From positions 1 through 64,000 of the forward strand of contig NZ_JABBXA010000031.1 of NCBI RefSeq assembly GCF_014161445.1: DNA of 64,000 nucleotides, in the 5' to 3' direction. The DNA is from Microbispora sp. H13382. Lineage in GTDB: Bacteria; Actinomycetota; Actinomycetes; Streptosporangiales; Streptosporangiaceae. Each line of letters starts with the position of its first letter. The first letter of the stretch is position 1. This document shows, piece after piece, positions 34,301 to 64,000 of this stretch. The notes below the pieces were generated by a model that was not told the DNA's origin, did no database searches, and saw only the letters and a program-made list of their open reading frames with translations. Made by a program: the position numbers and the translations under genes.

Positions 34301-35104
34301 TCAGTCCTCGGCGGTGAGGCCCTCGCGGAGCTGGGCCAGCGTCCGGGCGAGCAGCCGGGACACGTGCATCTGCGAGATCCCCAGCTCGGTGGCGATCTGC
34401 GACTGCGTCATGTTGCCGAAGAAACGCAGCAGCAGGATCCGCTTCTCGCGCGGAGGCAGGCGCTCGAGCAGCGGCTTGAGCGACTCGCGGTACTCCACAC
34501 CCTCCAGCGACTCGTCCACGATGCCGAGCGAGTCGGACACGGCGGGCGCGTCGTCGTCGCCGGAGTCGGGCGCGTCGAGCGACACGGTGGAGTAGGCGTT
34601 GGCCGACTCCAGGCCCTCCAGGACCTCCTCCTCGCTCATGCCGAGGTGCGCGGCGAGCTCGGCGACCGTGGGCGCGCGGCTCTCCCGCTGCGACAGCTCG
34701 CTTATCGCCTTGGTGAGCGAGAGCTTCAGCTCCTGGAGCCTGCGCGGCACGCGGACCGCCCAGCCCTTGTCGCGGAAGTGCCGCTTGATCTCGCCGACGA
34801 TGGTCGGAGTGGCGTACGTGGAGAACTCCACGCCGCGGGCGAGGTCGAACCGGTCGATCGACTTGATCAGCCCGATCGTGGCGACCTGCGTGAGGTCGTC
34901 GAGCCACTCGCCCCGGTTGCGGAAGCGACGGGCCAGGTACTCCACCAGAGGCAGGTGGAGCTCGACCAGCTCGTCGCGGATGCGCTGCCGCCTCGGGTCG
35001 TCCGACGGGAGCTCCGACAGCTCGGCGAAGAGTGTGCGGGCGCGTACGCGGTCCGGCACCGCCGAGTCGCCGGAGGTCATCGCACTCGTCCTTTCCGTCA
35101 TCAC
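34301..35104 (-). CDS. SigB/SigF-family stress sigma factor
   Basis: A 267-residue group 3 sigma factor. Region 2 (LVEYLARRFRNRGEWLDDLTQVATIGLIKSIDRFD), region 3 (RVPRRLQELKLSLTKAISEL) and region 4 (RILLLRFFGNMTQSQIATELGISQMHVSRLL) are all complete. It is of the SigF/SigB subgroup controlled by RsbW-type anti-sigma factors. It overlaps the upstream anti-sigma gene by 4 bp. Confidence 0.92.
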   Translation of the reverse strand: MMTERTSAMTSGDSAVPDRVRARTLFAELSELPSDDPRRQRIRDELVELHLPLVEYLARRFRNRGEWLDDLTQVATIGLIKSIDRFDLARGVEFSTYATPTIVGEIKRHFRDKGWAVRVPRRLQELKLSLTKAISELSQRESRAPTVAELAAHLGMSEEEVLEGLESANAYSTVSLDAPDSGDDDAPAVSDSLGIVDESLEGVEYRESLKPLLERLPPREKRILLLRFFGNMTQSQIATELGISQMHVSRLLARTLAQLREGLTAED

Positions 35105-49367: not shown

Positions 49368-50876
49368 ATGGATATGAAGGAGACGCAGATGGCGGGCACG
49401 GGCGGAAATCCGCTGGATTTCGCCGCGGCCGCCCCCTCGTATATCAGCGACGTCCTGTATCTGATCGCCTCCGGTTACGAGGACCTGGTCGACTGCGAGG
49501 CCGTCGAGCGGCTCAACCAGGCGAACATCAGCTTCGTCCGGGGGGAATTCGTCAACGCGCTCGGCCTGATCGAGGCCGTTCTGGCCGATCTGGACAGGTC
49601 ACAGCCCGCCTACACGAGCATCGCGGCGTTCAGGATGCTCCTGCAGTCCGTGGTCGGCCCCGATCCCGACCGCTGGAAGGCGGACGTCGACGAGAGACTC
49701 CTCGCCGTTCCCGGACCCCCCAAAGTCGTCCACCTCTGTATCGAGTCGGACCGGCTCTGGCACTCGGGCCGGCTCTTCCAGGGGCTCAGGCTGAACCAGC
49801 ACGCGCTCCAGCAGTCCCGGCACGATTGCGGCCAATGGCACCTTTACGCCCTCGTCCTCCTGGCCAAGAAGCTCACCGACATGCATCTCCGCGGGCAGGC
49901 GCACAGGCTGGTCGGCAAGGTCGAGGCATGTGTCCACGACTCCGGGCTGCTGGCCTTCGAGCCCGTGGTGGAAGCCCTGCGGTCGTCCCTGCACCTGCAG
50001 GCCGGCGCGTTCGAGAAGGCGCTGGCGTCCGTCGCCGAGACGCTGGAGGTCGCCCAGCGCCGGGGATCGATAATCGGGGTCGAGCTCGCGCTCTCGGTGG
50101 CGGCCGTGACCCATCTCCGTCTCGGGAACCGCGACGAGGCGGCCGCGTGCCTCAAGCTGTTCCACGCCCGGAACGGGCAGCACACTCCGGCCGACACCAG
50201 GGCGCGGGCGGCCTTCGCCGAGATCTCCCTGGTGGCCGCGGAGGAGGGACCGCGTGCGGGCGCCGAGGAGATCCGGGACCGGTGGCATCTCCTCGCGACC
50301 GAGTCGGCGTGCTTCGCCGAGGACGTCACCCGGCCGGCCTGGCTGGTGGCCGTCGCGCTCCGGGCGGGGGACGCCGCGCTGGCCGAGCGGGCGCTGTGCG
50401 CGATCGAACGGCTGGCCGGCGACAACCGCGAGGTCCAGCTGCTCGCGGTCGCCGAAGAGCACGCGCGGGCCGTGTACCGGGGCGACGGCCGGTCGCTCCC
50501 GCTGCCGCTGGACCTCGACGCCGGCGCCCGTCCCGGAACCGGCGCCGCTCTCGCCACGTCGCAGGAGCCGAAGAGATCGTCGGTGCCGCCCCGGGTCCGC
50601 CCGGCCCGGCAGGCCGCGTCGGCGGCCAGGCCCGCCTGCCCGCCGACGCTCACCGCCCGGGAAAGCGAGGTCGCGACTCTCGTGTCGCGCGGCATGACCA
50701 ACCGGCAGGTCGCCAACGAGCTCGGGCTCTCACCGCACACCGTGAACTTCCACTTACGGCGGATCTTCCGGAAGTTCTCCGTGTCCAGCCGCACCCAGCT
50801 CTGCCGGCTCATCGCGCAGACGGGCCCGGTGCCTGCGCCCGGGCTCGGGCCCGGGCGGGACGCCGAGCCGCGGTAG
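49368..50876 (+). CDS. LuxR-type regulator with TPR-like domain and a TTA codon
   Basis: A 502-residue protein. About 430 residues of helical TPR-like sequence are followed by a LuxR C-terminal helix-turn-helix (LTARESEVATLVSRGMTNRQ, ELGLSPHTVNFHLRRIF). The Leu in VNFHL (residue 463) is encoded by TTA at 50754-50756. TTA is very rare in such genomes and in Streptomyces needs the developmentally controlled bldA tRNA. There is no ATP-binding LAL domain. It follows the StrR-type gene and converges on the tRNA-like element. Confidence 0.85.
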   Translation: MDMKETQMAGTGGNPLDFAAAAPSYISDVLYLIASGYEDLVDCEAVERLNQANISFVRGEFVNALGLIEAVLADLDRSQPAYTSIAAFRMLLQSVVGPDPDRWKADVDERLLAVPGPPKVVHLCIESDRLWHSGRLFQGLRLNQHALQQSRHDCGQWHLYALVLLAKKLTDMHLRGQAHRLVGKVEACVHDSGLLAFEPVVEALRSSLHLQAGAFEKALASVAETLEVAQRRGSIIGVELALSVAAVTHLRLGNRDEAAACLKLFHARNGQHTPADTRARAAFAEISLVAAEEGPRAGAEEIRDRWHLLATESACFAEDVTRPAWLVAVALRAGDAALAERALCAIERLAGDNREVQLLAVAEEHARAVYRGDGRSLPLPLDLDAGARPGTGAALATSQEPKRSSVPPRVRPARQAASAARPACPPTLTARESEVATLVSRGMTNRQVANELGLSPHTVNFHLRRIFRKFSVSSRTQLCRLIAQTGPVPAPGLGPGRDAEPR

Positions 50877-50921
50877 GACGGGCGGGACGATCACCACGCC
50901 CGGGCTCGCGTCATCACGGAG

Positions 50922-51006
50922 CGGAAGGGGCAGGATTCGAACCTGCGTGGGCTTTCACCCGACCGGGTCGCCCCGGTCCTCGTTGGGCCGCTTCGAGTAC
51001 CCTTCC
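50922..51006 (-). ncRNA. tRNA-like RNA, class II (serine-type) with non-decoding anticodon arm
   Basis: Minus strand, 85 nt. The acceptor stem GGAAGGG/CCCTTCC is perfect (7 bp) with discriminator G73; 8-9 are TA. The D stem CTCG/CGAG encloses an 11-nt loop containing GG. The T arm is GCAGG-TTCGAAT-CCTGC. The long variable arm is GGGT-GAAA-GCCC, a GNRA tetraloop. The anticodon arm GACCGG-GGCGAC-CCGGTC begins directly after the D stem, has 6 bp with a 6-nt loop (or 5 bp with 8 nt) and no U33, so it cannot present an anticodon normally. G73, G1-C72, G2-C71, A3-U70 and the long variable arm are bacterial serine-tRNA identity features; SerRS does not read the anticodon. CCA is not encoded. It lies 46 bp after the aminoacyl-tRNA transferase stop, same strand. 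Confidence 0.78.
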
Positions 51007-51034
51007 CTGTCCCGCGTCGCCGGGATCCCTCCCG

Positions 51035-51068
51035 GTCACAGGATGTTCGTCGTCACAGGATGTTCGTC
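51035..51068. repeat. Exact 17-bp tandem duplication at a gene end
   Basis: GTCACAGGATGTTCGTC occurs twice without a gap, spanning the stop codon of the transferase gene (51053). The same kind of 17-bp gene-end duplication occurs at 991-1047. Confidence 0.85.
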
Positions 51069-52057
51069 GCTCGCACCAGGGCCCACAGGGACCGCGGCGA
51101 CAGTCCGCCGTCGAAGGCGAAATACTCGGGCAAAATCGCCGACGGACCCCACTTGAGCTTGTACTCCAGCTGGCTCTTCGCCGGGTAGACACGATCGCCG
51201 TGGTCCGCAATGAGCCGGATGATCCGCGCGCCCGCTCCGCTGGCCGTCGGCAGCTCGTGCTCCTCGTCCAGGCCGGTGAAGGGCGTGAAGCCGAAGTGCA
51301 GCCAGGGCGTGCCCAGGGCGCGGAAGTGTTCGACGGCGTGGAAGTTGATCGCCTCCATGACGCCGGGCGGGCAGTCGGGCAGGCGGCGGCTCAGGTCGTG
51401 CAGCCAGCCGGGGCGCGAGCCGTACACGGGGGCGAAGGAGACGTACGCGACGGGCCTGCCGCCGATCGTCCCGAGGAACAGCTTGCGCAGCGGCTGCCAC
51501 TCCCCGCCGATCTCGCCGATCAGGAATGTCAGCTCCTTGGTGTGCCGGCCCTTGTCGCGCAGCCAGCGTGCGTCGATCTCGGCGACGTCTTCGGCGTATC
51601 GGGTGGCGTCCACGACCGCTGTCTCGAGGCCGGCGCGCAACGCGCGGGATATCTTGTTGCGCAGTTTGAGGAACCGTTTTCCGCGCAGGTTGAAATCCGC
51701 CAGCTCCACGGCATAGGACGCACCGACCTGATTCACGGTGAATCCCAGCTCGGCGAACAGTTCCGCGTCCGCGCGCTGAAGCTGCACGCCGATGACACGG
51801 CGGCCGCCGGCGTGGGCGTGCTCGATGAACCTGGTTTGCAGCTCCTTCCTGGTCGCGGCGCCGGTGAACGGCCCGCCGAACTGCAGCCACCTGCGTCCGT
51901 GCGGCCGGTAGCACACGAAACCGTCGATCCCTGGCCAGGCGAAGTACTCGTTGCCGCGGTTGAGGGCGAGGAACGCGCTCGGGTTGTCCGCGTGCCGTTC
52001 GAGGCCGGACAGGATGTCGTCCCGGCTCTGCAACCGGGGCGAGTCGGGCGCCTTCAT
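51053..52057 (-). CDS. Soluble MprF-like (DUF2156) aminoacyl-tRNA transferase, VlmA-like
   Basis: A 334-residue protein consisting of the C-terminal lysyl-phosphatidylglycerol-synthase (DUF2156) domain, without the membrane flippase part. Visible segments: NEYFAWPGIDGFVCYRPHGR, LRGKRFLKLRNKISRA, RWLRDKGRHTKELTFLIGE, and FAPVYGSRPGWLHDLSRR. This double-GNAT fold transfers an amino acid from aminoacyl-tRNA. VlmA of valanimycin biosynthesis moves Ser from seryl-tRNA to a hydroxylamine, and I believe it belongs here. ATG 52057 has GGGAG 6 bp upstream. The tRNA-like gene follows directly. Confidence 0.8.
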   Translation of the reverse strand: MKAPDSPRLQSRDDILSGLERHADNPSAFLALNRGNEYFAWPGIDGFVCYRPHGRRWLQFGGPFTGAATRKELQTRFIEHAHAGGRRVIGVQLQRADAELFAELGFTVNQVGASYAVELADFNLRGKRFLKLRNKISRALRAGLETAVVDATRYAEDVAEIDARWLRDKGRHTKELTFLIGEIGGEWQPLRKLFLGTIGGRPVAYVSFAPVYGSRPGWLHDLSRRLPDCPPGVMEAINFHAVEHFRALGTPWLHFGFTPFTGLDEEHELPTASGAGARIIRLIADHGDRVYPAKSQLEYKLKWGPSAILPEYFAFDGGLSPRSLWALVRATNIL

Positions 52058-52140
52058 GCCTGCTCCCAACGGTTCGGAGTTCGTCGGTCCCGACCCTAGG
52101 GACCTCCTCTGACGTCGGGTCGACGCCGCGCCCCCGGTCA

Positions 52141-52172
52141 TGTCAGGGCTGTGTCAGGGCCGGCTCCAATAC
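52141..52172 (+). promoter_or_regulatory. SARP-type direct repeat and -10 element
   Basis: TGTCAGGGC is repeated with an 11-bp period (52141-52149, 52152-52160). Taking the heptamer TGTCAGG, its second copy ends 8 bp before CAATAC (52167-52172), a possible -10. This is the geometry of SARP-activated promoters. Transcription would start at about 52179, just before ATG 52182. No SARP gene is in the window. Confidence 0.5.
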
Positions 52173-52181
52173 TTGCGAAGC

Positions 52182-53864
52182 ATGTCCTCGGCGGTGCGCC
52201 TCGAAAACGCGCCACCGGCTGTCAGAAACGCCTGGAACGCGGATTGCGGGGTCGTGGTGGCGGCGAACATCACCGAAACCCAACGAGTGCCTTCGTTGGG
52301 CAGCTTTGTTCGAGGTAAGGACGTCGAGAGCGGCAAATGGGTGTACAGCCTTCGGCCGCGCGCGGTTCTGGATGACTCGTTCGCCAGCCTGACGCTGAAA
52401 CGCAGGCTGGAATCCGGCGTGATGTCCCTCGACGAGGCGCCGCCGGGCGTGATCGCCGGCCGCGTCGCGCTGGCGGAGGACGAGACCATCGAGGACGCGC
52501 TGGCCGCGGCGGCGGAGGCCACGAAGATCTGGCGGTCGGCGCCGTTGTCCACGCGCCTCGACGCCTGGACCGGGCTGATCCGGCGCGTCCTGCTGGACAG
52601 GCGCGACGAGCTCATCCACATGCTGACCCTGGAAGGCCACCCGGTGGAGCTGGCGCGCTGGGAGCTGTCCGGGATGCTGGAGCTGACCAGGGCGGAGACC
52701 GTCGAGTTCCTGCGCGGCCAGTTGTGGCAGGAGTTCACGGTCGACGGCCGCCGCAACATCGTGAGGCGCCAGGCCGACGGCGTGGTGTGCGTCAGCCCGC
52801 CCGCGAACGCGCCGCTGGTCAGCGCGCTGCTCGGCGCCGTGAGCATCGCGGGGGGCAACGCCGTCGTCGTCCGCGCGCCCCGGGCGGCGCCCTTCGCCGT
52901 CTCCCACGTCCTGCGTACGATGATCGTCCCGACCCTGGAGGAGCTCGGCGCCCCGCCCGGCACGCTCAACATCGTCTGCGGCAGCCCGGGGCGCATGCTC
53001 GACACCTGGATCGCCAGCCCGCACGTCAACGACATCATGTACTTCGGCGACACCCCCACCGGGCTGAAAATCGAGCGCCGCTGCGTCGAGATGGGCAAGA
53101 AGCCGATCCTCGAACTGGCCGGCAACGACGTCGTCCTGATCTGGAAGGACGCCGACCTGGACGCGGCCGCGGCCGCGCTGACGGAGAGCTTCTACGGGTC
53201 CGGGCAGCTCTGCATGGTCCCGAACCAGGCGCTGGTCCACCCGGAGGTGGCCGACGAGCTGATCAGCCGGGTGGCGGCCAGGGCGGAGGCGCTGCGGCCC
53301 GGCTACCCCGAAGAGGACGGCGTGCTGCTGTCGCCGGTGCTGCGCCACGACCGGTTCGACGAGTTCCTCGCGGAGGCGGTCGAGGCCGGTGCCACCGTCG
53401 TCACCGGCGGGCAGGGCATGCAGATCGACGGCACTCCGGACGCCTCCGGGTTCTTCCTGCAGCCGACGGTGCTCCGGATCGACGGCCTGGGCGGCGCGCG
53501 CGACCTCAAGGCCGTGCGGGAGGAGACGTTCTTCCCGCTGCTGCCCGTCGTCGTGCCCGAGCCGGCGGACGACGAGATCCTGCTTGACGCCTTCATCGGG
53601 TTCGTCAACTCCAACCGGTACGGCCTGCGCAACTCGCTGTGGGCCAGGGACGAATCCGTGATCGGCAGGTATGTGGCGGAGACCGCCGGAGGCGGCCTGC
53701 TCAAGGTCAACGACTCGCACATCGCGTTCACCGCGCCCCTGCCGTCGCACGGCGGCACCGGGCTGACCGGCGGCGCCTTCGGCGAGGCCAACTATCCCGC
53801 CCTCCGGGCCACGCACCTGCAGGGCATCTCGATCGTCACCGGCGAATCCGGGTCAGCGGCCTGA
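52182..53864 (+). CDS. Aldehyde dehydrogenase superfamily enzyme
   Basis: A protein of about 560 residues, longer than usual because of a 75-residue N-terminal extension. The catalytic Cys344 is in GSGQLCM and the general-base-position Glu311 in ILELAGNDVV. PPANAPLVSALLGAVSIAGGNAVV is the nucleotide-binding region. Working as an acyl-thioester or carboxylate-linked enzyme it could supply the aldehyde for the aminotransferase two genes on. The start is uncertain: ATG 52140, ATG 52182 or GTG 52254 are in frame; 52182 fits the promoter geometry. Confidence 0.82.
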   Translation: MSSAVRLENAPPAVRNAWNADCGVVVAANITETQRVPSLGSFVRGKDVESGKWVYSLRPRAVLDDSFASLTLKRRLESGVMSLDEAPPGVIAGRVALAEDETIEDALAAAAEATKIWRSAPLSTRLDAWTGLIRRVLLDRRDELIHMLTLEGHPVELARWELSGMLELTRAETVEFLRGQLWQEFTVDGRRNIVRRQADGVVCVSPPANAPLVSALLGAVSIAGGNAVVVRAPRAAPFAVSHVLRTMIVPTLEELGAPPGTLNIVCGSPGRMLDTWIASPHVNDIMYFGDTPTGLKIERRCVEMGKKPILELAGNDVVLIWKDADLDAAAAALTESFYGSGQLCMVPNQALVHPEVADELISRVAARAEALRPGYPEEDGVLLSPVLRHDRFDEFLAEAVEAGATVVTGGQGMQIDGTPDASGFFLQPTVLRIDGLGGARDLKAVREETFFPLLPVVVPEPADDEILLDAFIGFVNSNRYGLRNSLWARDESVIGRYVAETAGGGLLKVNDSHIAFTAPLPSHGGTGLTGGAFGEANYPALRATHLQGISIVTGESGSAA

Positions 53865-53878
53865 GGAGGGGCGGCTCC

Positions 53879-55015
53879 ATGCGAACGATGGATGAAGCAC
53901 GCGCGGTCTGTGAGCGGCACCTGCCGGGCCTGCTGGCCAAGCTGGCGGCCGTTCCGCTGCTCGAGCTGGAGAAGCCGGGCAACCCCGCGCTCGAGCTGTT
54001 CAAGGCGAGCGGCGGGCCGGGGCTGGTGATCCCCAAGGCGTACGAGGGGCGCGGCGTCACGCCGATGGAGGCGATCCAGGTCACCCGTGCGATCGGCGCG
54101 GCGGCCCCCTCTCTGTCGGTGGCCTCGACGATGCACCACTTCTCGGTGGCGACCATCTTCGCCCTCGCGGAGAGCCTGCGCTCCAGCGGAGTCGAGTGGG
54201 CGCTGCTGGAGGGCATCGCCACCCAGAACCTGCTGGTGTCCTCGGCGTTCGCCGAAGGCAACCCCGGCCAGGGCATCCTGTCGCCCACCGTCACCGGCGT
54301 ACGCAAGGAGGACGGGGTCGTCGTCAACGGGTCCAAGCGGCCCTGCAGCATGTCGCGCTCCATGGACCTGCTCTCGGCGAGCATCGCGGTGCCCGGCGAG
54401 GACGGCGGGTCCGAGGTCATGCTGATGCTCGTCCCCAAGGAGACGCCGGGGCTGTCGGTGCATCCGTTCTGGGGGAGCGACGTGCTGGCCGGCGCGGAAA
54501 GCGACGAGGTGCGGCTGACCGACGTGTACGTCGACAACCGCCTCCTCGTCCCCACCGAGGTCGGTGAGCAGGGCGAGCTGGACGAGCTGCAGACCGTCGG
54601 CTTCATGTGGTTCGAGATGCTCATCACCTCCTGCTATCTCGGCATGGTCAGCGCGCTGGCCGAGCGGGCGCTGGCGAGCGGGAAGCTCGGCGCCGACCTC
54701 GCGGCCGAGCTCGGCGTGCGGCTGGAGACGGCCACGCTCCTGCTGGAGAGGATCGCCGCGCAGCTCATGGCGCGGGAGAGCGACAACGCCGCCCTCGCCA
54801 AGGCGATGATCGCCCGGTACGGCGCGCAGGAGGCGATCCTGGACGCCGAGAAGCGGGCCGTCGAGGCGCTGGGCGGGATGGCGTTCATCTCCTCGCCGGA
54901 GGTCGCCTACCTCGCCGCGGCCGCCCACTGCGTCACCTTCCATCCGCCCTCGCGCTCCGGTACGCGCCGGCACCTGGCCGCGTACTTCCAGGGCGACGTC
55001 CTGCGCGTCTCGTGA
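53879..55015 (+). CDS. Acyl-CoA dehydrogenase-fold flavoenzyme, candidate N-hydroxylase (VlmH-like)
   Basis: A 378-residue ACAD-superfamily protein: GLVIPKAYEGRGVTPMEAIQ, VSSAFAEGNPGQGIL, VVNGSKRPCSMSRSMDLLS and a C-terminal helical bundle (ALGGMAFISSPEVAYLAAAAHCVTFHPPS). The usual catalytic Glu of true dehydrogenases is not evident, favouring an oxygenase of the kind represented by VlmH, which N-hydroxylates isobutylamine using reduced flavin. A flavin reductase is encoded at 62177. GAGGAGGGG precedes the ATG. Confidence 0.75.
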   Translation: MRTMDEARAVCERHLPGLLAKLAAVPLLELEKPGNPALELFKASGGPGLVIPKAYEGRGVTPMEAIQVTRAIGAAAPSLSVASTMHHFSVATIFALAESLRSSGVEWALLEGIATQNLLVSSAFAEGNPGQGILSPTVTGVRKEDGVVVNGSKRPCSMSRSMDLLSASIAVPGEDGGSEVMLMLVPKETPGLSVHPFWGSDVLAGAESDEVRLTDVYVDNRLLVPTEVGEQGELDELQTVGFMWFEMLITSCYLGMVSALAERALASGKLGADLAAELGVRLETATLLLERIAAQLMARESDNAALAKAMIARYGAQEAILDAEKRAVEALGGMAFISSPEVAYLAAAAHCVTFHPPSRSGTRRHLAAYFQGDVLRVS

Positions 55016-55025
55016 GGACCTGCCG

Positions 55026-56318
55026 ATGCTCGAGAACCTTGTGACGTACGACGCCGGGATGAGCGACGAACAGGTGTCGGCTCTGTACCGGCGCACGATG
55101 AGCTCCGGCCGTGCCCGCCTGGCCGAGGTGCTGGGCGGGCAGGTGGAGGTGGAGTCGTCGGGCGCGTGGCTCACCACCAGCGACGGCCGGCGCCTGCTCA
55201 ACGTCGGCGGGTACGGCGTGCTCATCAGCGGCGCCCGCCACCCGATCGTGGTGGCCGAGGTCGAGCGGCAGCTGCACAGGCACCCCGTCGGGACGAGGAT
55301 CTTCCTCGACCCGGTGGCCGCCCGCGCCGCCGAGCTCCTGACCTCCGTGACCCCTCCCGGCCTGACCCGGGTGCACTTCTCCGGCTCGGGGGCCGAGGCG
55401 GTCGAGGCCGCCATCAAGATCGCGAGGCTCAACGGGCGGCGTCACCTCGTGGCGATGACCGGCGGCTACCACGGCAAGACGCTGGGCGCGCTGTCGGTGA
55501 CCGCGAAAGACGCCTTCAGGGAGCCGTTCCACCCGCTGCTGCCGGGGGTGTCGCACGTGCCGTTCGGCGACGTGCAGGCGCTCACCGCCGTCCTGCGGCA
55601 GCACCCGGGCGAGTGCTGCGTCATCGTCGAACCCGTCCAGGGCGAGGGCGGCGTGGTGATCCCGCCGGAGGGCTACCTCGGCGACGTGCGCGCGGTGTGC
55701 TCCGAGTACGGCGCGCTGCTGGTCGCCGACGAGGTGCAGACGGGCCTCGGCCGGCTGGGGGCGTGGTGGGGCGTCGACCTGGAAGGGGTGCGCCCGGACA
55801 TCCTGCTGTCCGGCAAGGCGCTCGGCGGCGGCGTCATGCCGGTCGCCGCGACCATCGCCACCGAGGAGACCTTCGCGGTCCTCGACCGGGATCCGGTCCT
55901 GCACACCTCCACCTTCTCCGCGGCTCCGATCGCCATGGCCGCCGTGTGCGGCGCGATCCGGGCGATCCGCGAGGACGACCTGGTCGGGCGGGCCGCCCGG
56001 CTCGGTGAGCGGCTCACCCCCGAACTGCGGCGGATCACGGCGGCGGGCCTGGTCCACCAGCGGCACGAGGTGCGCGGCCTCGGCCTGCTCATCGGGATCG
56101 AGTTCGCCGACCCCGCGACGGCGATCGAACTCTTCATGGCACTGGTCGCCCACGACGTCGTGGCGAACGTGTCCCTGAGCTCCGACCACGTCGTCCGGCT
56201 CACGCCGCCCGCGACGCTGGGCGAATCAGAGATCGCCTTCCTTCTGGAACGGTTCGAGCGGGCGGTCGCGCTGGTCGCCGAGCAGAACCCCGAGTACGAG
56301 GTGCATGCGGATGCGTAG
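55026..56318 (+). CDS. Class III PLP aminotransferase
   Basis: A 430-residue ornithine/putrescine-type aminotransferase. VHFSGSGAEAVEAAIKIAR, MTGGYHGKTLGALS, VADEVQTGLGRLG and the PLP Lys264 in LLSGKALGGGVMP are intact. It could turn an aldehyde into the primary amine that the N-hydroxylase needs; valanimycin instead decarboxylates valine. It starts 10 bp after the previous stop and overlaps the SRPBCC gene by 14 bp. Confidence 0.88.
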   Translation: MLENLVTYDAGMSDEQVSALYRRTMSSGRARLAEVLGGQVEVESSGAWLTTSDGRRLLNVGGYGVLISGARHPIVVAEVERQLHRHPVGTRIFLDPVAARAAELLTSVTPPGLTRVHFSGSGAEAVEAAIKIARLNGRRHLVAMTGGYHGKTLGALSVTAKDAFREPFHPLLPGVSHVPFGDVQALTAVLRQHPGECCVIVEPVQGEGGVVIPPEGYLGDVRAVCSEYGALLVADEVQTGLGRLGAWWGVDLEGVRPDILLSGKALGGGVMPVAATIATEETFAVLDRDPVLHTSTFSAAPIAMAAVCGAIRAIREDDLVGRAARLGERLTPELRRITAAGLVHQRHEVRGLGLLIGIEFADPATAIELFMALVAHDVVANVSLSSDHVVRLTPPATLGESEIAFLLERFERAVALVAEQNPEYEVHADA

Positions 56319-56817
56319 TGTCGAACTCACCCTGAACTCGCCCGTGGACGCGGACTTCGCGTTCCAGCGGATCACCGAGTTCGAGCGATATCCCGACTTC
56401 GTGGACGAGGTCCGCTCGGTCGTCGTGCGGGACAACGACGGCGAGACGCTGGTCAGCGAGTGGGACATCCTGTTCCGCAACGGCCCGTTGCGCTGGTCGG
56501 AGGCCGACTACATCCAGCGCGGCGCACGCCGCATCGTCTTCGAGCAGACCGCCGGCGACTTCGACGTGTTCCGCGGGACGTGGCGGGTCGAGCCCGCCGC
56601 GACGGGCTCCGTGATCACCTTCGAGGCCACGTTCGACTTCGGCATCCCGAGCCTGGCCGGAGTGCTGGAGCCGATCGCGGCCAAGGTGCTCAAGGAGGCG
56701 ATCGCCACCATCGTGCACCGGCTGCTGGGAGAGGCGACCGTCGTCGGCGAGCCCGCGATCGCCGTGGCCGTACGCGCCCGGCTCGAACGTCAGCGCGCGG
56801 CCGTCGAATCGGCCTAG
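56305..56817 (+). CDS. SRPBCC (polyketide cyclase/START-like) protein
   Basis: A 170-residue helix-grip protein: VDADFAFQRITEFERYPDFVDEVRSV at the N-terminus, FEQTAGDFDVFRGTWRVEP in the middle, and a long C-terminal helix. SRPBCC folds bind hydrophobic ligands and catalyse cyclisations or shield reactive intermediates. In this operon it may hold an N-acyloxy or N-N intermediate. It overlaps the aminotransferase gene, so it is tightly coupled. Confidence 0.78.
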   Translation: MRMRSVELTLNSPVDADFAFQRITEFERYPDFVDEVRSVVVRDNDGETLVSEWDILFRNGPLRWSEADYIQRGARRIVFEQTAGDFDVFRGTWRVEPAATGSVITFEATFDFGIPSLAGVLEPIAAKVLKEAIATIVHRLLGEATVVGEPAIAVAVRARLERQRAAVESA

Positions 56818-56833: not shown

Positions 56834-57310
56834 ATGGACCACGCGAACCGTTTCCAGAGCCTGGTCACCTACCGGCTGCTCCGCGCGGAGTACGCCGTCG
56901 CCCTCGTCGTGTGCTCGGTGCTGTTCCTCTGGCACATCCGCGAGGTGCGATGGCTGCCGGCCGTGGCGCTGTTCGCCTACATCGACGTGATCGGCTACAT
57001 CCCGGGGGCGATCGCCTTCAGGCGCGCCCGCGGCCGCCCCATCTCCAAGGTCTACTACGTGCTCTACAACACGATGCACAGCATGGTGACCCAGGCCGTG
57101 GTGGTGGGGGTGTGGGCCGCGGTCGCCGGCTTCGAGTGGGCCCTGCTGGTGGTGCCGATCCACCTGTGCGGTGACCGCGCGCTCTTCGGCAACTTCCTCA
57201 AGTCCTTCAGCGTGCCGTTCGAACCCGCGGTGATCCCGCAGTTCGCGGAGTTCGACAGGCGCGTCTTCGGGCGGGACGACGCGAAGCTCGCCGTCCCCAC
57301 GCGGATTTGA
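56834..57310 (+). CDS. Small integral membrane protein of the azoxy-type locus
   Basis: A 158-residue protein with three or four transmembrane helices. Conserved-looking His and Asn occur in or next to helices: LWHIREV, YNTMHSMVTQ, PIHLCGDRALFGNFLK. These could ligate a metal. I do not recognise the family. The valanimycin cluster also has a membrane protein (VlmO) of uncertain role, so this may be its counterpart. It lies between the SRPBCC and monooxygenase genes, overlapping the latter's frame edge. Confidence 0.65.
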   Translation: MDHANRFQSLVTYRLLRAEYAVALVVCSVLFLWHIREVRWLPAVALFAYIDVIGYIPGAIAFRRARGRPISKVYYVLYNTMHSMVTQAVVVGVWAAVAGFEWALLVVPIHLCGDRALFGNFLKSFSVPFEPAVIPQFAEFDRRVFGRDDAKLAVPTRI

Positions 57311-61200: not shown

Positions 61201-61227
61201 CGCCGGAGCGTCGCGAAAGGTGTGAAC

Positions 61228-62172
61228 ATGAATCAGCAGGTGCGCGTCGCCGCGGTCGTCAACCCGGCGGCCGGCGGCGACGGCGAAGCCGCCGTCAGCG
61301 CCATGAGGGAGGTGGGCGCCGCCGACGTGGAGGTCTTCGCGACCACGGCGGCGGGCGACGCGGCCGGCATCGCCTACAAGCTGGCCGCCGCCGCCGTTCC
61401 TCCGGACATCCTCGTCGCCGTCGGCGGTGACGGCACGGTCTCGGAGGTGGCCGCAGGCCTCTGCCAGGCCCGCGAGACGGGCGTCGCCGCGCTTCCCCCG
61501 CTCCTGATCGCGCCGGCGGGAACCGGTAACTCCAGCTATCGGGGGCTGTGGAACGACCGGCCGTGGGAGAGCGTGGCCGGGCTGGCGCTGCGGGGCGAGG
61601 CCGTCACCCGGACGATCGACCTGGCCAGGATCGAGCAGAACGACCACCTGGTGCTGCTGGGATCGGGCAGCGGTCTGTTCGCCGAGACCCTGCTCACGGC
61701 CAGGAAGATGGCGGGCAGGGGACGTGAGTTGCTGATGGCGGCCGCCCTGGCCGCCATGGAGGGCTACGTGCCGTACCCGGGCCGGGTGACCGTCGACGGC
61801 GAGGTCGTCTACGAGGGGGACGTCATCGAGACGATCGTGGCCGGTTTCCGCTACCGGGGAGGCCTGCTGCAACTGGTCCCGGAGTCGATCGTGGACGACG
61901 GAAGGCTCGACATCACCGTCGTCACCGCCGCCGTGGACATGGACGAGTTCGGACAGGCCGCCCTGTACGGCCGTGTCTACGACGTGCCGGGAGTGCGGTG
62001 GGGGCGCGGCGAACGGATCACCGTCGAGCGCCTGGACGGACAGCCGTTGTTGTACGAGCACGACGGGGAGCTCATGCCGCGGACCACCCCGTCCTACGAC
62101 GTCCACGTCGTCCCGGCCGCGCTGACCGTCCTCACGGCGGCCGACGCGCCGTCGTGGTTCAGTGAGAGGTGA
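61228..62172 (+). CDS. Diacylglycerol kinase-like small-molecule kinase (VlmJ-like)
   Basis: A 314-residue DAGK-domain protein: VVNPAAGGDGEAAV at the N-terminus, VGGDGTVSEVAAGL near 70, and IAPAGTGNSSYRGLWNDRP. It differs clearly from the chromosomal lipid kinase at 32712. In valanimycin biosynthesis the DAGK-like VlmJ phosphorylates valanimycin hydrate so that VlmK can eliminate phosphate. The VlmK family is encoded two genes downstream. ATG 61228 has GAAAGG upstream. Confidence 0.8.
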   Translation: MNQQVRVAAVVNPAAGGDGEAAVSAMREVGAADVEVFATTAAGDAAGIAYKLAAAAVPPDILVAVGGDGTVSEVAAGLCQARETGVAALPPLLIAPAGTGNSSYRGLWNDRPWESVAGLALRGEAVTRTIDLARIEQNDHLVLLGSGSGLFAETLLTARKMAGRGRELLMAAALAAMEGYVPYPGRVTVDGEVVYEGDVIETIVAGFRYRGGLLQLVPESIVDDGRLDITVVTAAVDMDEFGQAALYGRVYDVPGVRWGRGERITVERLDGQPLLYEHDGELMPRTTPSYDVHVVPAALTVLTAADAPSWFSER

Positions 62173-62176
62173 TCGC

Positions 62177-62731
62177 GTGGTCAGCGCGAGTTCCGTGCGG
62201 GGGAGCGGCCCGTCCCTGGGCGCCGAGCCGTTCCGCGACTACTGCCGCAAGCTGGCCGCCGGCGTCGCCGTGGTCACCTCGTGCGGCCCGTCCGGCTGGT
62301 CGGGGACGACCGTGAGCACCGTGACCAGCGTGTCGATGGACCCTCCCCTCCTGATGTGCTGCGTCCGCCCCTGCTCCCAGACCCTGGCCGCGATCCGCGC
62401 CGCCGGGCGCTTCGCGGTCCACCTGCTGACCGACGACCAGGCCGCCCTGGCCGACCGGTTCAGCCGGTCGGCCGGCGAGGGCTCGCGTTTCGCCGGGATC
62501 GAGGGCCAGGTGCAGCTCGTCGACGGAAGCCCGGTGATCGCCGGCGCACTCGCGGTCGGGTGGTGCGACCTGTACTCCCTGGACGAGATCGGCGACCACG
62601 TCGTGGTGTACGGGCGGCTCACGAACATGCGGCTCGGGCAGGGCCGTCCGCTGGTCTGGCACGAGCGCTCCTACCGGCACCTGGAGGCCGCGTCGCCCGA
62701 CGGCGTGAACGGGAGGGGAACCGCGTCATGA
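62177..62731 (+). CDS. Flavin reductase (VlmR/HpaC-like)
   Basis: A 184-residue NAD(P)H:flavin oxidoreductase of the split-barrel family: FRDYCRKLAAGVAVVTSCG, then TVSTVTSVSMDPPLLMCCV and ARFAVHLL-type AGRFAVHLLTDDQ. It supplies reduced flavin to a two-component oxygenase, here most likely the ACAD-fold enzyme at 53879. GTG 62177 follows GAGAGGTGAT. Its stop overlaps the next start (ATGA). Confidence 0.88.
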   Translation: MVSASSVRGSGPSLGAEPFRDYCRKLAAGVAVVTSCGPSGWSGTTVSTVTSVSMDPPLLMCCVRPCSQTLAAIRAAGRFAVHLLTDDQAALADRFSRSAGEGSRFAGIEGQVQLVDGSPVIAGALAVGWCDLYSLDEIGDHVVVYGRLTNMRLGQGRPLVWHERSYRHLEAASPDGVNGRGTAS

Positions 62732-64000
62732 CGACCACCCGGCCCGCCGGCGTCACCTCCGGCGAGCCTTCCGAGCCGCCCGCGAGCCTCACGGAGCAGC
62801 TCGCCGCCTGGGCGCACGCGGTGACGTACGGGGACATCCCCGCGGCCACGCTGGCGGCGGCCCGCAGCCAGCTCATCTCCAACCTGGCGGCCGTGCGGGC
62901 GTCGCTGCGCCACCCCGCCGGACGGGCGATCGTCGCGGCGTACGGCCCGCCGCTGCAGGCCGACCCCGCCCGGTCGGCCTGCGTACTGGCCGCCCTGGCC
63001 TCGGCGCTCGACTTCGACGAGGTCGCCTACGCGGGGCACGTCTCGACGGGGGGCGTGAACGTCGCGATCGCGCACGCCGGACTCGACCGGCTGGACGGGC
63101 GGGCGCTGCTGGCCACGATCGTCACCGCCAACGAGTGCGCCGCCAGGATCACCGCGGCGACGATTCTCAGCCCGTTCTTCCGGGGGCAGACCAACACCCA
63201 CTGCCATCTGGCCGGCGCGGCCGCCGCCCGCCTCCGCGCCCGCGACGCCGCACCCGGCGAGTGGGTCGCGGGGCTGGGGCTGGCGCTGGGCACCCTGCCC
63301 GTCCCCCTCCACCACGCGGTCGTGACCAGCGACGTCAAGGCGCTGTCGGCGGCGGCGGCCGTCCGCATGGCGCTCGACGGGTGCGACGGCGCGGCGCACG
63401 GCCTGGCCGGGCCGGCCACGGTCCTCGAACACCCGGAGGGCCTGCTGGCGGCGCTGTCGGCCGTTCCGCTGCCCGAGATCGTGACCACCGGGCTCGGCCA
63501 CCGGTGGCACACCGACACCCTGACCTACAAGCGCTTCCCCGGCAGCGCCTACCTGCACGCCGCGTTCGACTGCGCCGAGCGGTTGCACGAGTGGCTGCAG
63601 GGGCGGCTCGGCGCCGTCGATCCGTCCCGGGTCCGCCGGGTGGTCGTCCACGGGTCGCTGCTGACCTGGCAGATGGAGCGGAAGGTGGCCCGGGACCTCG
63701 ACGGCCCCCGGACGAACGTCTCCGCCGCGACCCTGTCGGTCGGGTACGGCGTGGCCACACTGCTGATGACCGGGGCGTTCGGGCCGGAGGACCTCACTCC
63801 CTCGGCCCTGGCCGACCCGGAGCGCTGGGCCCTGGCGGAGAAGGTCGTGGTCGAGCACGACATGGACCTGTCGATCCGGATGGCGCAGGCCACCTCGCCG
63901 CTGGGCGAGTCGCTGCGCCGGGCCGGGGACCGGGCGCTGGACTGGCCGGAGTTCGTGCGGTGGACCGGCGACGCCGCGCCGGGCCTGCTGGCCGCGCTGG
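62728..64000 (+). CDS. MmgE/PrpD family protein (VlmK-like), cut by window edge
   Basis: At least 424 residues; the stop lies beyond the window. MmgE/PrpD features: DFDEVAYAGHVSTGG (about 92-106), TIVTANECAARI, and a helical C-terminal part with DTLTYKRFPGSAYLHAAFD. The family includes 2-methylcitrate dehydratase and, in valanimycin biosynthesis, VlmK, which eliminates phosphate to make the vinyl group. It overlaps the flavin reductase by 4 bp. Confidence 0.85.
   Translation, partial: MTTTRPAGVTSGEPSEPPASLTEQLAAWAHAVTYGDIPAATLAAARSQLISNLAAVRASLRHPAGRAIVAAYGPPLQADPARSACVLAALASALDFDEVAYAGHVSTGGVNVAIAHAGLDRLDGRALLATIVTANECAARITAATILSPFFRGQTNTHCHLAGAAAARLRARDAAPGEWVAGLGLALGTLPVPLHHAVVTSDVKALSAAAAVRMALDGCDGAAHGLAGPATVLEHPEGLLAALSAVPLPEIVTTGLGHRWHTDTLTYKRFPGSAYLHAAFDCAERLHEWLQGRLGAVDPSRVRRVVVHGSLLTWQMERKVARDLDGPRTNVSAATLSVGYGVATLLMTGAFGPEDLTPSALADPERWALAEKVVVEHDMDLSIRMAQATSPLGESLRRAGDRALDWPEFVRWTGDAAPGLLAAL

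Follow-up and report, generated by a model that had tools for sequence, protein, structure and literature searches.

The 64,000-nucleotide stretch of Microbispora sp. H13382 analysed here (contig NZ_JABBXA010000031.1, positions 1 to 64,000; hereafter the window) contains, beside a gene for a VlmA-like aminoacyl-tRNA-dependent transferase, a small RNA gene that folds as a class II tRNA of the serine type and carries a plain hairpin in place of the anticodon arm. This element very probably represents a new family of cluster-encoded, decoding-dead tRNA-Ser species, which would be charged by seryl-tRNA synthetase (SerRS) and serve VlmA as donor, a private serine supply off the ribosome. The initial annotation of the window had proposed a serine-type tRNA that does not decode and is reserved for an azoxy pathway, and this is the reading that conservation, covariation and association with VlmA best support.

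Fold and family of the element

Direct reading, ARAGORN and unconstrained folding agreed with the initial annotation on the coordinates, the minus strand and the tRNA fold of the element, the parts of which are as follows.

50922..51006, minus strand: tRNA-like RNA gene, 85 nt from position 1 to the discriminator G73, CCA not encoded; 89.7 bits with covariance model R1, the element being itself among the 24 sequences from which R1 was built
50979..50997, minus strand: D arm, 4 bp, with an 11-nt loop containing the conserved A and GG
50961..50978, minus strand: non-decoding hairpin replacing the anticodon arm, GACCGGG-GCGA-CCCGGTC, with no 7-nt loop and no U33
50949..50960, minus strand: variable arm, 4 bp with a GAAA loop (class II)
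50930..50946, minus strand: T arm, GCAGG-TTCGAAT-CCTGC, with A51-U63

The full cloverleaf was the minimum free energy structure when folding was unconstrained (−45.1 kcal/mol), with a 7-bp acceptor (GGAAGGG/CCCTTCC), a 4-bp D stem (CTCG/CGAG), a 7-bp hairpin with a GCGA loop, a 4-bp variable arm (GGGT-GAAA-GCCC), a 5-bp T arm and a discriminator G. The z score of the fold was −3.78, with none of 200 shuffles as good, and three relatives gave −1.72, −3.42 and −3.56; on the value of the element and the existence of homologues we rejected a chance fold. The cloverleaf, the 7-bp acceptor, the 5-bp T stem and the tRNA core bases are those of a canonical tRNA, and G73, G1-C72, G2-C71 and A3-U70, named in the initial annotation as the serine identity set, are all present. 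The canonical 7-nt anticodon loop with U33 is missing, because positions 26 to 44, which span 18 nt compared with 19 in ordinary tRNA, form a plain hairpin with a 4-nt loop after 7 bp; the missing U33 and the wrong loop size had been recognized from the start. ARAGORN reported the element (50921-51006, minus strand) as "tRNA-???" with the four-base "anticodon" gcga. A search of Rfam with E values up to 1 returned tRNA-Sec as its sole match, at 25.6 bits and below the gathering threshold of 47, and the element was absent from the 57 RF00005 matches of the genome at E ≤ 0.001.

The window element is a single copy in its own genome, where intact tRNA-Ser genes for CGA, GCT, GGA and TGA are present, and it is therefore not the remnant of a needed housekeeping gene; nor does the same sequence recur elsewhere in that genome as a decayed housekeeping tRNA, which the initial annotation had named as an outcome that would refute it. 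CCA is likewise unencoded in the four intact tRNA-Ser genes. The next-best matches of the model in the host genome were tRNA-Ser(TGA) at 51.5 bits and tRNA-Tyr at 46.4 bits, compared with 89.7 bits for the element. Partial copies of tRNA-Ser(TGA) do occur in this genome, as expected if the element were a decayed tRNA-Ser or an attachment-site remnant: two more tRNA-Ser(TGA) calls (L315 86-177 and L316 100-190; L and G numbers denote loci and genomes) share mainly their 3′ part with the intact gene, the pattern expected after integration events. The elements, however, are full-length and covarying, have conserved upstream repeats, number up to 11 copies per genome and occur in several actinobacterial families. 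On the strength of the covariation and the upstream repeats we rejected this explanation, to which we give next to no probability.

Relatives of the element were sought by blastn in 297 genomes of the family, of which 142 had matches at E ≤ 0.01, mostly short. Full-length relatives besides the window copy were found only in G007 (two tandem copies), G140, G065, G189 and G164, and in all five a VlmA homologue of 49-53% identity lies within about 9 kb of the element. VlmA loci were collected with a profile of six VlmA proteins, and the best 80 of 106 were used, four of them from the same genomes as G007, G065, G140 and G189. Model R1 gave 52 matches of 75-97 bits in 35 of these 80 loci and the window, the next match being an ordinary tRNA-Arg at 25 bits; several loci had two or three tandem copies. 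The margin was narrower in whole genomes, where the weakest accepted element of a sample of 392 Streptomyces genomes scored 67.7 bits and ordinary tRNA-Ser scored up to 62.3 bits. A class-wide sample of 394 genomes contained 18 with model matches, namely, 5 with elements and 13 with tRNA-Ser (59-62 bits). Elements with one extra T-stem base occur at L005 9387-9474 and 9665-9752 and at L099 9674-9761; these were unreported by ARAGORN (L002, L004, L099 and L103).

Conservation and compensatory changes in relatives had been set beforehand as a test of the proposed RNA, and both were found. Among 24 sequences, 97.1% of pair cells were standard and 13 of 26 pairs had changed on both sides, a result reached by none of 500 shuffles; when the partner was slid by one base, pairing fell to 55-60%. 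Among 95 distinct sequences (from 119 model matches), in an alignment fitted to the model and thus leaning towards structure, 95.9% were standard and 15 of 26 pairs showed changes on both sides (0 of 500 shuffles). Such changes occur in all five helices, including the hairpin that replaces the anticodon arm, 83% of whose cells are paired.

Fixed and free positions were counted in 92 of the 95 sequences, leaving out two that lie across runs of N (L095 and L105) and one short deleted copy (L186). No variation occurs at G1-C72, G2-C71, A3-U70, G73, T8, G18, G19 and A51-U63, and the T loop reads TTCRAAY, although part of this invariance arises by construction because members were found by similarity. 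The 51-63 pair, which has been tied to EF-Tu affinity (PMC4052509; papers cited by PMC number are drawn on in excerpt throughout), is A-U in all 92 elements and G-C in all 19 distinct housekeeping tRNA-Ser.

The hairpin at the anticodon position, by contrast, varies from 16 to 35 nt in length, and the loop of its best fold has 3-6 nt in 89 sequences, 8 nt in two and 7 nt in one; U33 is present in all 57 distinct housekeeping tRNAs compared. The isotypes that ARAGORN assigned to the elements follow whatever bases sit there (Arg, Gly, Glu, Val, Cys, Asp, Ala, Met, Asn and others). Labels such as Arg, Val, Cys, Ala or Gly, or a four-base anticodon, on many copies might be taken as signs that the RNA decodes through an unusual or enlarged anticodon, acting as a frameshift or nonsense suppressor. 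Neither the length nor the sequence of the loop is conserved, however, and tandem copies within one locus may differ in it (L104 and L103); in the absence of a conserved loop we rejected a suppressor tRNA, which is extremely improbable.

Coupling to VlmA and to serine

As the initial annotation had it, a VlmA-like transferase gene lies 46 bp from the element on the same strand: the gap (51007-51052) separates the element from the stop codon of the gene. Immediately before the RNA gene, at 51036-51069, the last codons and the stop codon of vlmA are tandemly duplicated (a 17-nt repeat, CGACGAACATCCTGTGA, occurring twice). Scanning of 50800-52300 found no sigma-70-type promoter or terminator, and the window copy may be transcribed together with vlmA.

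The association with VlmA is not peculiar to the window. In the Streptomyces sample, the element was present in 51 genomes (1-11 copies), VlmA in 80 and both in 49 (Fisher p = 1.8e-38, uncorrected for the kinship of the genomes). VlmA was counted at E ≤ 1e-60, and a recount without ten weaker matches gave 49, 2, 21 and 320 genomes (both, element only, VlmA only and neither) and p = 5e-43. In the other two element genomes, a VlmA-like gene of 36-37% identity lies some 2.3 kb away from the element, accompanied by homologues of aminotransferase and kinase. Element and VlmA are on one contig in 41 of the 49 genomes, with a gap of under 340 bp in 25 and on opposite strands in 39 of the 41; the order differs in the window and in Kutzneria sp. 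744 (L039), where the RNA follows vlmA on the same strand. In a VlmA tree of 82 rows, an element lies within 10 kb in 34 of the 40 rows of one clade and in 3 of the 42 rows of the other, the window being among these three.

Plasmids carry the pair as well. By blastn, 13 plasmid records contain the element and 10 of them also VlmA; R1 confirmed the elements in four of the plasmid stretches (L302, L303, L304 and L307), the remaining nine being blastn matches. On a further VlmA plasmid, NZ_CP108789.1, the model found an element 0.2 kb from VlmA. Plasmids of Streptomyces collinus Tu 365 (pSCO1; L302 12014-12108), S. griseofuscus and Streptomyces sp. NBC_00557 (the latter two by blastn) have an element, and no VlmA was found on them.

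VlmA homologues without the RNA exist, as they would if the charged RNA were used by another enzyme of the cluster. In the Streptomyces sample, nevertheless, each of the 51 genomes with an element has a VlmA-family gene, often adjacent to the element, in a survey that covered VlmA among the transferases, and we consider another user very unlikely.

Serine is indicated by the RNA and by its neighbours. The identity features of tRNA-Ser (long variable arm, G73 and serine acceptor pairs) are present in all 92 elements, and the non-element RNAs nearest to the model were tRNA-Ser in all 13 class-wide loci. A divergent second SerRS accompanies VlmA in 24 of the 80 VlmA loci (two matches are partial, at locus edges), and an element is present for every one of the 24, within the locus in 20 cases and elsewhere in the genome in four; the one cluster SerRS that was scanned (L111) retains PF02403 and PF00587. 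Among the 392 Streptomyces genomes, a second SerRS was found in 32 of the 51 with the element and in 49 of the 341 others (p = 1e-12), a count that does not separate cluster SerRS from other extra copies.

When VlmA loci were divided by gene content, those with an aldehyde dehydrogenase or SerRS had an element in 46 of 50 tested genomes and other loci in 5 of 28 (p = 3e-11; L056 and L080 were left out of this test). The five exceptions comprise L104 and L118, with an element in the locus, L063 and L082, with an element in a second region containing VlmA and SerRS, and L061. Apart from L104 and L118, loci with neither gene had a local element in none of 27 cases. Loci with an aldehyde dehydrogenase or SerRS may be of a serine type, and the remaining loci appear to us to resemble the azodyrecin type in gene content. 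The VlmA homologue of azodyrecin biosynthesis has been proposed to use alanyl-tRNA from the cellular pool (PMC9379638), which would favour an RNA that supplies a VlmA-type enzyme with an amino acid other than serine, for instance alanine. Against this stand the long variable arm and G73, the serine tRNAs nearest to the model, the nature of the extra synthetase (SerRS) and the absence of local copies from the 27 loci. In addition, the acceptor of most elements begins with GGAGAG, the same six bases as in host tRNA-Ser(TGA), although the window copy has GGAAGG. Another amino acid is thus most improbable.

The genes next to the element in the window are listed below.

51053..52141, minus strand: VlmA-like aminoacyl-tRNA-dependent transferase (LPG_synthase_C; Pfam PF09924, 7.1e-64)
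52140..53864, plus strand: aldehyde dehydrogenase, start uncertain (PF00171); homologue in 15 of the 35 loci with a local element
53639..55015, plus strand: acyl-CoA-dehydrogenase-like enzyme, candidate VlmH by inference, start uncertain (weak PF02770/PF02771); homologue in 57 of the 80 VlmA loci
55026..56318, plus strand: class III aminotransferase (PF00202)
56305..56817, plus strand: SRPBCC/polyketide cyclase-like protein (PF03364)
56834..57310, plus strand: conserved hypothetical protein of azoxy clusters, no Pfam match; homologue in 54 of the 80 VlmA loci
61222..62172, plus strand: VlmJ-like kinase of the YegS/DAGK type, named by analogy (PF00781, PF19279)
62162..62731, plus strand: flavin reductase, candidate VlmR (PF01613)
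62728..64000, plus strand: VlmK-like MmgE/PrpD protein, named by analogy (PF03972, PF19305); the frame continues to 64281, beyond the window

A profile of the window VlmA-like protein and five relatives matched solved chains of LysPGS, AlaPGS and MprF, which are aminoacyl-tRNA-dependent lysyl- and alanyl-phosphatidylglycerol synthases. The kinase and the MmgE/PrpD protein match PF19279 and PF03972, the families given for VlmJ and VlmK (PMC9379638), and a VlmJ and VlmK pair acts on valanimycin hydrate (PMC4052509). Because of these matches the gene set looks valanimycin-like, as judged from Pfam families alone. ARAGORN also called a tRNA-Leu(caa) at 34420-34513 on the minus strand; it lies within a likely coding frame (34301-35104), is not among the RF00005 matches of the genome and is probably spurious.

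Upstream repeats and dispersed copies

TCAG repeats at a spacing of exactly 11 bp, which we take to be the operator pattern of SARP activators, lie 45-156 bp ahead of the RNA in 78 of the 88 elements that come first in their array. The 88 stretches remained from 105 distinct upstream stretches (at least 120 bases, no N) after tandem followers were dropped, and they are not independent because related strains are among them. Downstream, such repeats occurred in 4 of 88; shuffles averaged 0.13, and other spacings gave 0-2, except 22. SARP-type genes were seen in L109 (by Pfam) and in L303, L306 and L307 (annotated) among the loci looked at, and VlmI of valanimycin biosynthesis is titled a SARP in a reference cited by PMC4052509.

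Elements also occur away from VlmA. In S. diastatochromogenes, Streptomyces sp. BK340 and S. murinus (G297, G298 and G299), the VlmA locus contains SerRS and lacks the element, and 8, 8 and 9 element copies of at least 77 bits lie elsewhere in the respective genomes, as found with an E-value limit of 1e-4 (another search used 1e-9). Of these 25 dispersed copies, 23 were fetched with flanks (L167-L185 and L194-L196), and 20 of the 23 have an 11-bp-spaced TCAG pair upstream. Their flanks are otherwise unlike, with no protein family common to more than three loci. Because the TCAG pair and the RNA are kept while the flanks differ, a cassette of about 200 bp, consisting of the repeats, a short leader and the RNA, seems to have been copied round the genome. 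A 50-nt copy at L186 5956-6005 lacks the hairpin and the variable arm and keeps the acceptor and T arm, with TCAG repeats upstream.

The repeats and the dispersed multi-copy cassettes would also suit an RNA that is charged with serine and has chiefly a regulatory or sink function, whether by titration of SerRS, VlmA or EF-Tu or as a riboregulator of the cluster, instead of being the donor; a regulatory pseudo-tRNA has a precedent in tRNA-Other of Bacillus cereus (PMC3399842). The elements, however, keep the charging architecture of acceptor, T arm and variable arm, with G73 invariant, and they go with a second SerRS. Moreover, the hairpin is unlikely to pair with a fixed target because its loop is too variable. 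We regard a mainly regulatory role as unlikely.

Proposed role and comparison with known systems

In the mechanism that we propose, the RNA keeps what SerRS reads, namely, the acceptor, G73, the variable arm and the tRNA core, and has lost the anticodon, positions 26 to 44 being a plain hairpin. SerRS would charge it with serine, using either the only copy of the host, as in the window genome, or the second copy in the cluster (24 of the 80 loci), and the VlmA-type transferase would pass the serine on to the hydroxylamine substrate, in the way published for valanimycin with seryl-tRNA. The charged RNA would be unusable by the ribosome because it has no anticodon, leaving a private serine supply made along with the pathway; A51-U63 may additionally weaken EF-Tu binding. 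Transcription, charging, transfer and exclusion from translation are steps that we infer, and the coupling to VlmA and SerRS suggests that this RNA would be the serine donor for VlmA. In the wider form that we consider likely, the private SerRS, the anticodon-less tRNA and VlmA would make up an off-ribosome serine-delivery module under the SARP of the pathway, built on a new class of tRNA without decoding. The module would be spread over several actinobacterial families and Streptomyces plasmids, and its promoter-plus-tRNA cassette would have been copied to up to 11 places per genome to raise the supply.

Several observations weigh against the proposed donor role or its generality. The RNA and VlmA are not always together: 31 of the 80 VlmA genomes of the Streptomyces sample lack the element, and a VlmA homologue (48%) of the betaproteobacterium Paraburkholderia phymatum, on pBPHY01 (L305 15001-16002), has none within 15 kb. 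In the VlmA loci tested by gene content, no element was found in the genome searched for four aldehyde dehydrogenase loci (L040, L042, L074 and L097) and for 23 of the 28 other loci, although draft genomes may be incomplete. Conversely, neither VlmA nor SerRS was found in the DNA fetched round the 23 dispersed copies, nor in the 40 kb fetched round the 77-bit element of the L061 genome (G710:C112:94650-94740; L233, L293 and L294). Homologues of VlmJ and VlmK accompany a local element in 12 and 11 of 35 loci and were also seen in some loci that lack one (10-kb flank), and they alone therefore do not mark the element. No cluster SerRS of the VlmL type was found in the window, the genome having one SerRS above the family cut-off, and no SARP-like repeat was found upstream of its element. 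As for the RNA, the hairpin of one member of the 92 (L215) could be given a 5-bp stem closing a 7-nt loop that contains U33. Escape from EF-Tu is countered by G49-C65, present in all 92 elements, and by the retained G18-G19; A51-U63 is not special to the family, occurring also in 10 of 38 non-serine housekeeping tRNAs, and is for that reason at most a contributing feature.

If the proposed donor role is true, the system would offer a natural synthetase/tRNA pair free of decoding constraints, useful for engineering aminoacyl-tRNA chemistry. Its sequence also serves to mark a class of azoxy clusters, and caution is needed with tRNA finders, which assign unrelated isotypes to these genes.

Among known tRNA-shaped RNAs, a close parallel is the non-proteinogenic tRNA-Gly of Staphylococcus aureus, which is set aside from translation for an aminoacyl-tRNA transferase, in the making of the peptidoglycan bridge (PMC4052509). 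The comparison, already drawn in the initial annotation, holds in part: A51-U63 is common to both, whereas the element keeps G18-G19 and has G49-C65 instead of A49-U65. The element differs further in having no anticodon, in its proposed amino acid (serine instead of glycine) and in the place of its gene beside a biosynthetic cluster that often includes a synthetase of its own. Both tRNA-Sec and allo-tRNAs are serylated class II tRNAs, the anticodon of which is not read by SerRS (PMC7609411). tRNA-Sec has an 8-bp acceptor in bacteria, a 6-bp D stem and usually a UCA anticodon (PMC7609411); the 7-bp acceptor, the 4-bp D stem, the missing anticodon and an Rfam score of only 25.6 bits rule out this identity. 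An allo-tRNA, with a 12-bp branch (8/4 or 9/3), is ruled out by the 7/5 acceptor-T branch of the model and the window copy. tRNA-Other of B. cereus is a tRNA-shaped RNA outside translation too; its anticodon is that of Trp, and it has been described as belonging to a regulatory RNA (PMC3399842). The tRNA-like domain of tmRNA is a chargeable tRNA shape without an anticodon (PMC2481249), whereas the element is a complete small cloverleaf with a D stem and no mRNA part, and ARAGORN found no tmRNA in the window.

In titles, abstracts and excerpts of the open-access literature, with subscription journals mostly uncovered, no paper was found to describe a tRNA gene as part of an azoxy cluster or of any other natural-product cluster. 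The nearest characterized pathway is that of valanimycin, in which VlmA uses seryl-tRNA supplied by VlmL, a SerRS (PMC4052509, PMC12945691), and VlmJ and VlmK act later (PMC4052509; PMC9379638). The excerpts of PMC4052509 and PMC9379638 mention no tRNA gene for this pathway, and the diversion of Ser-tRNA to it is called unknown (PMC4052509). If the RNA described here is the donor, an anticodon-less cluster tRNA would answer that question for the clusters that have one.
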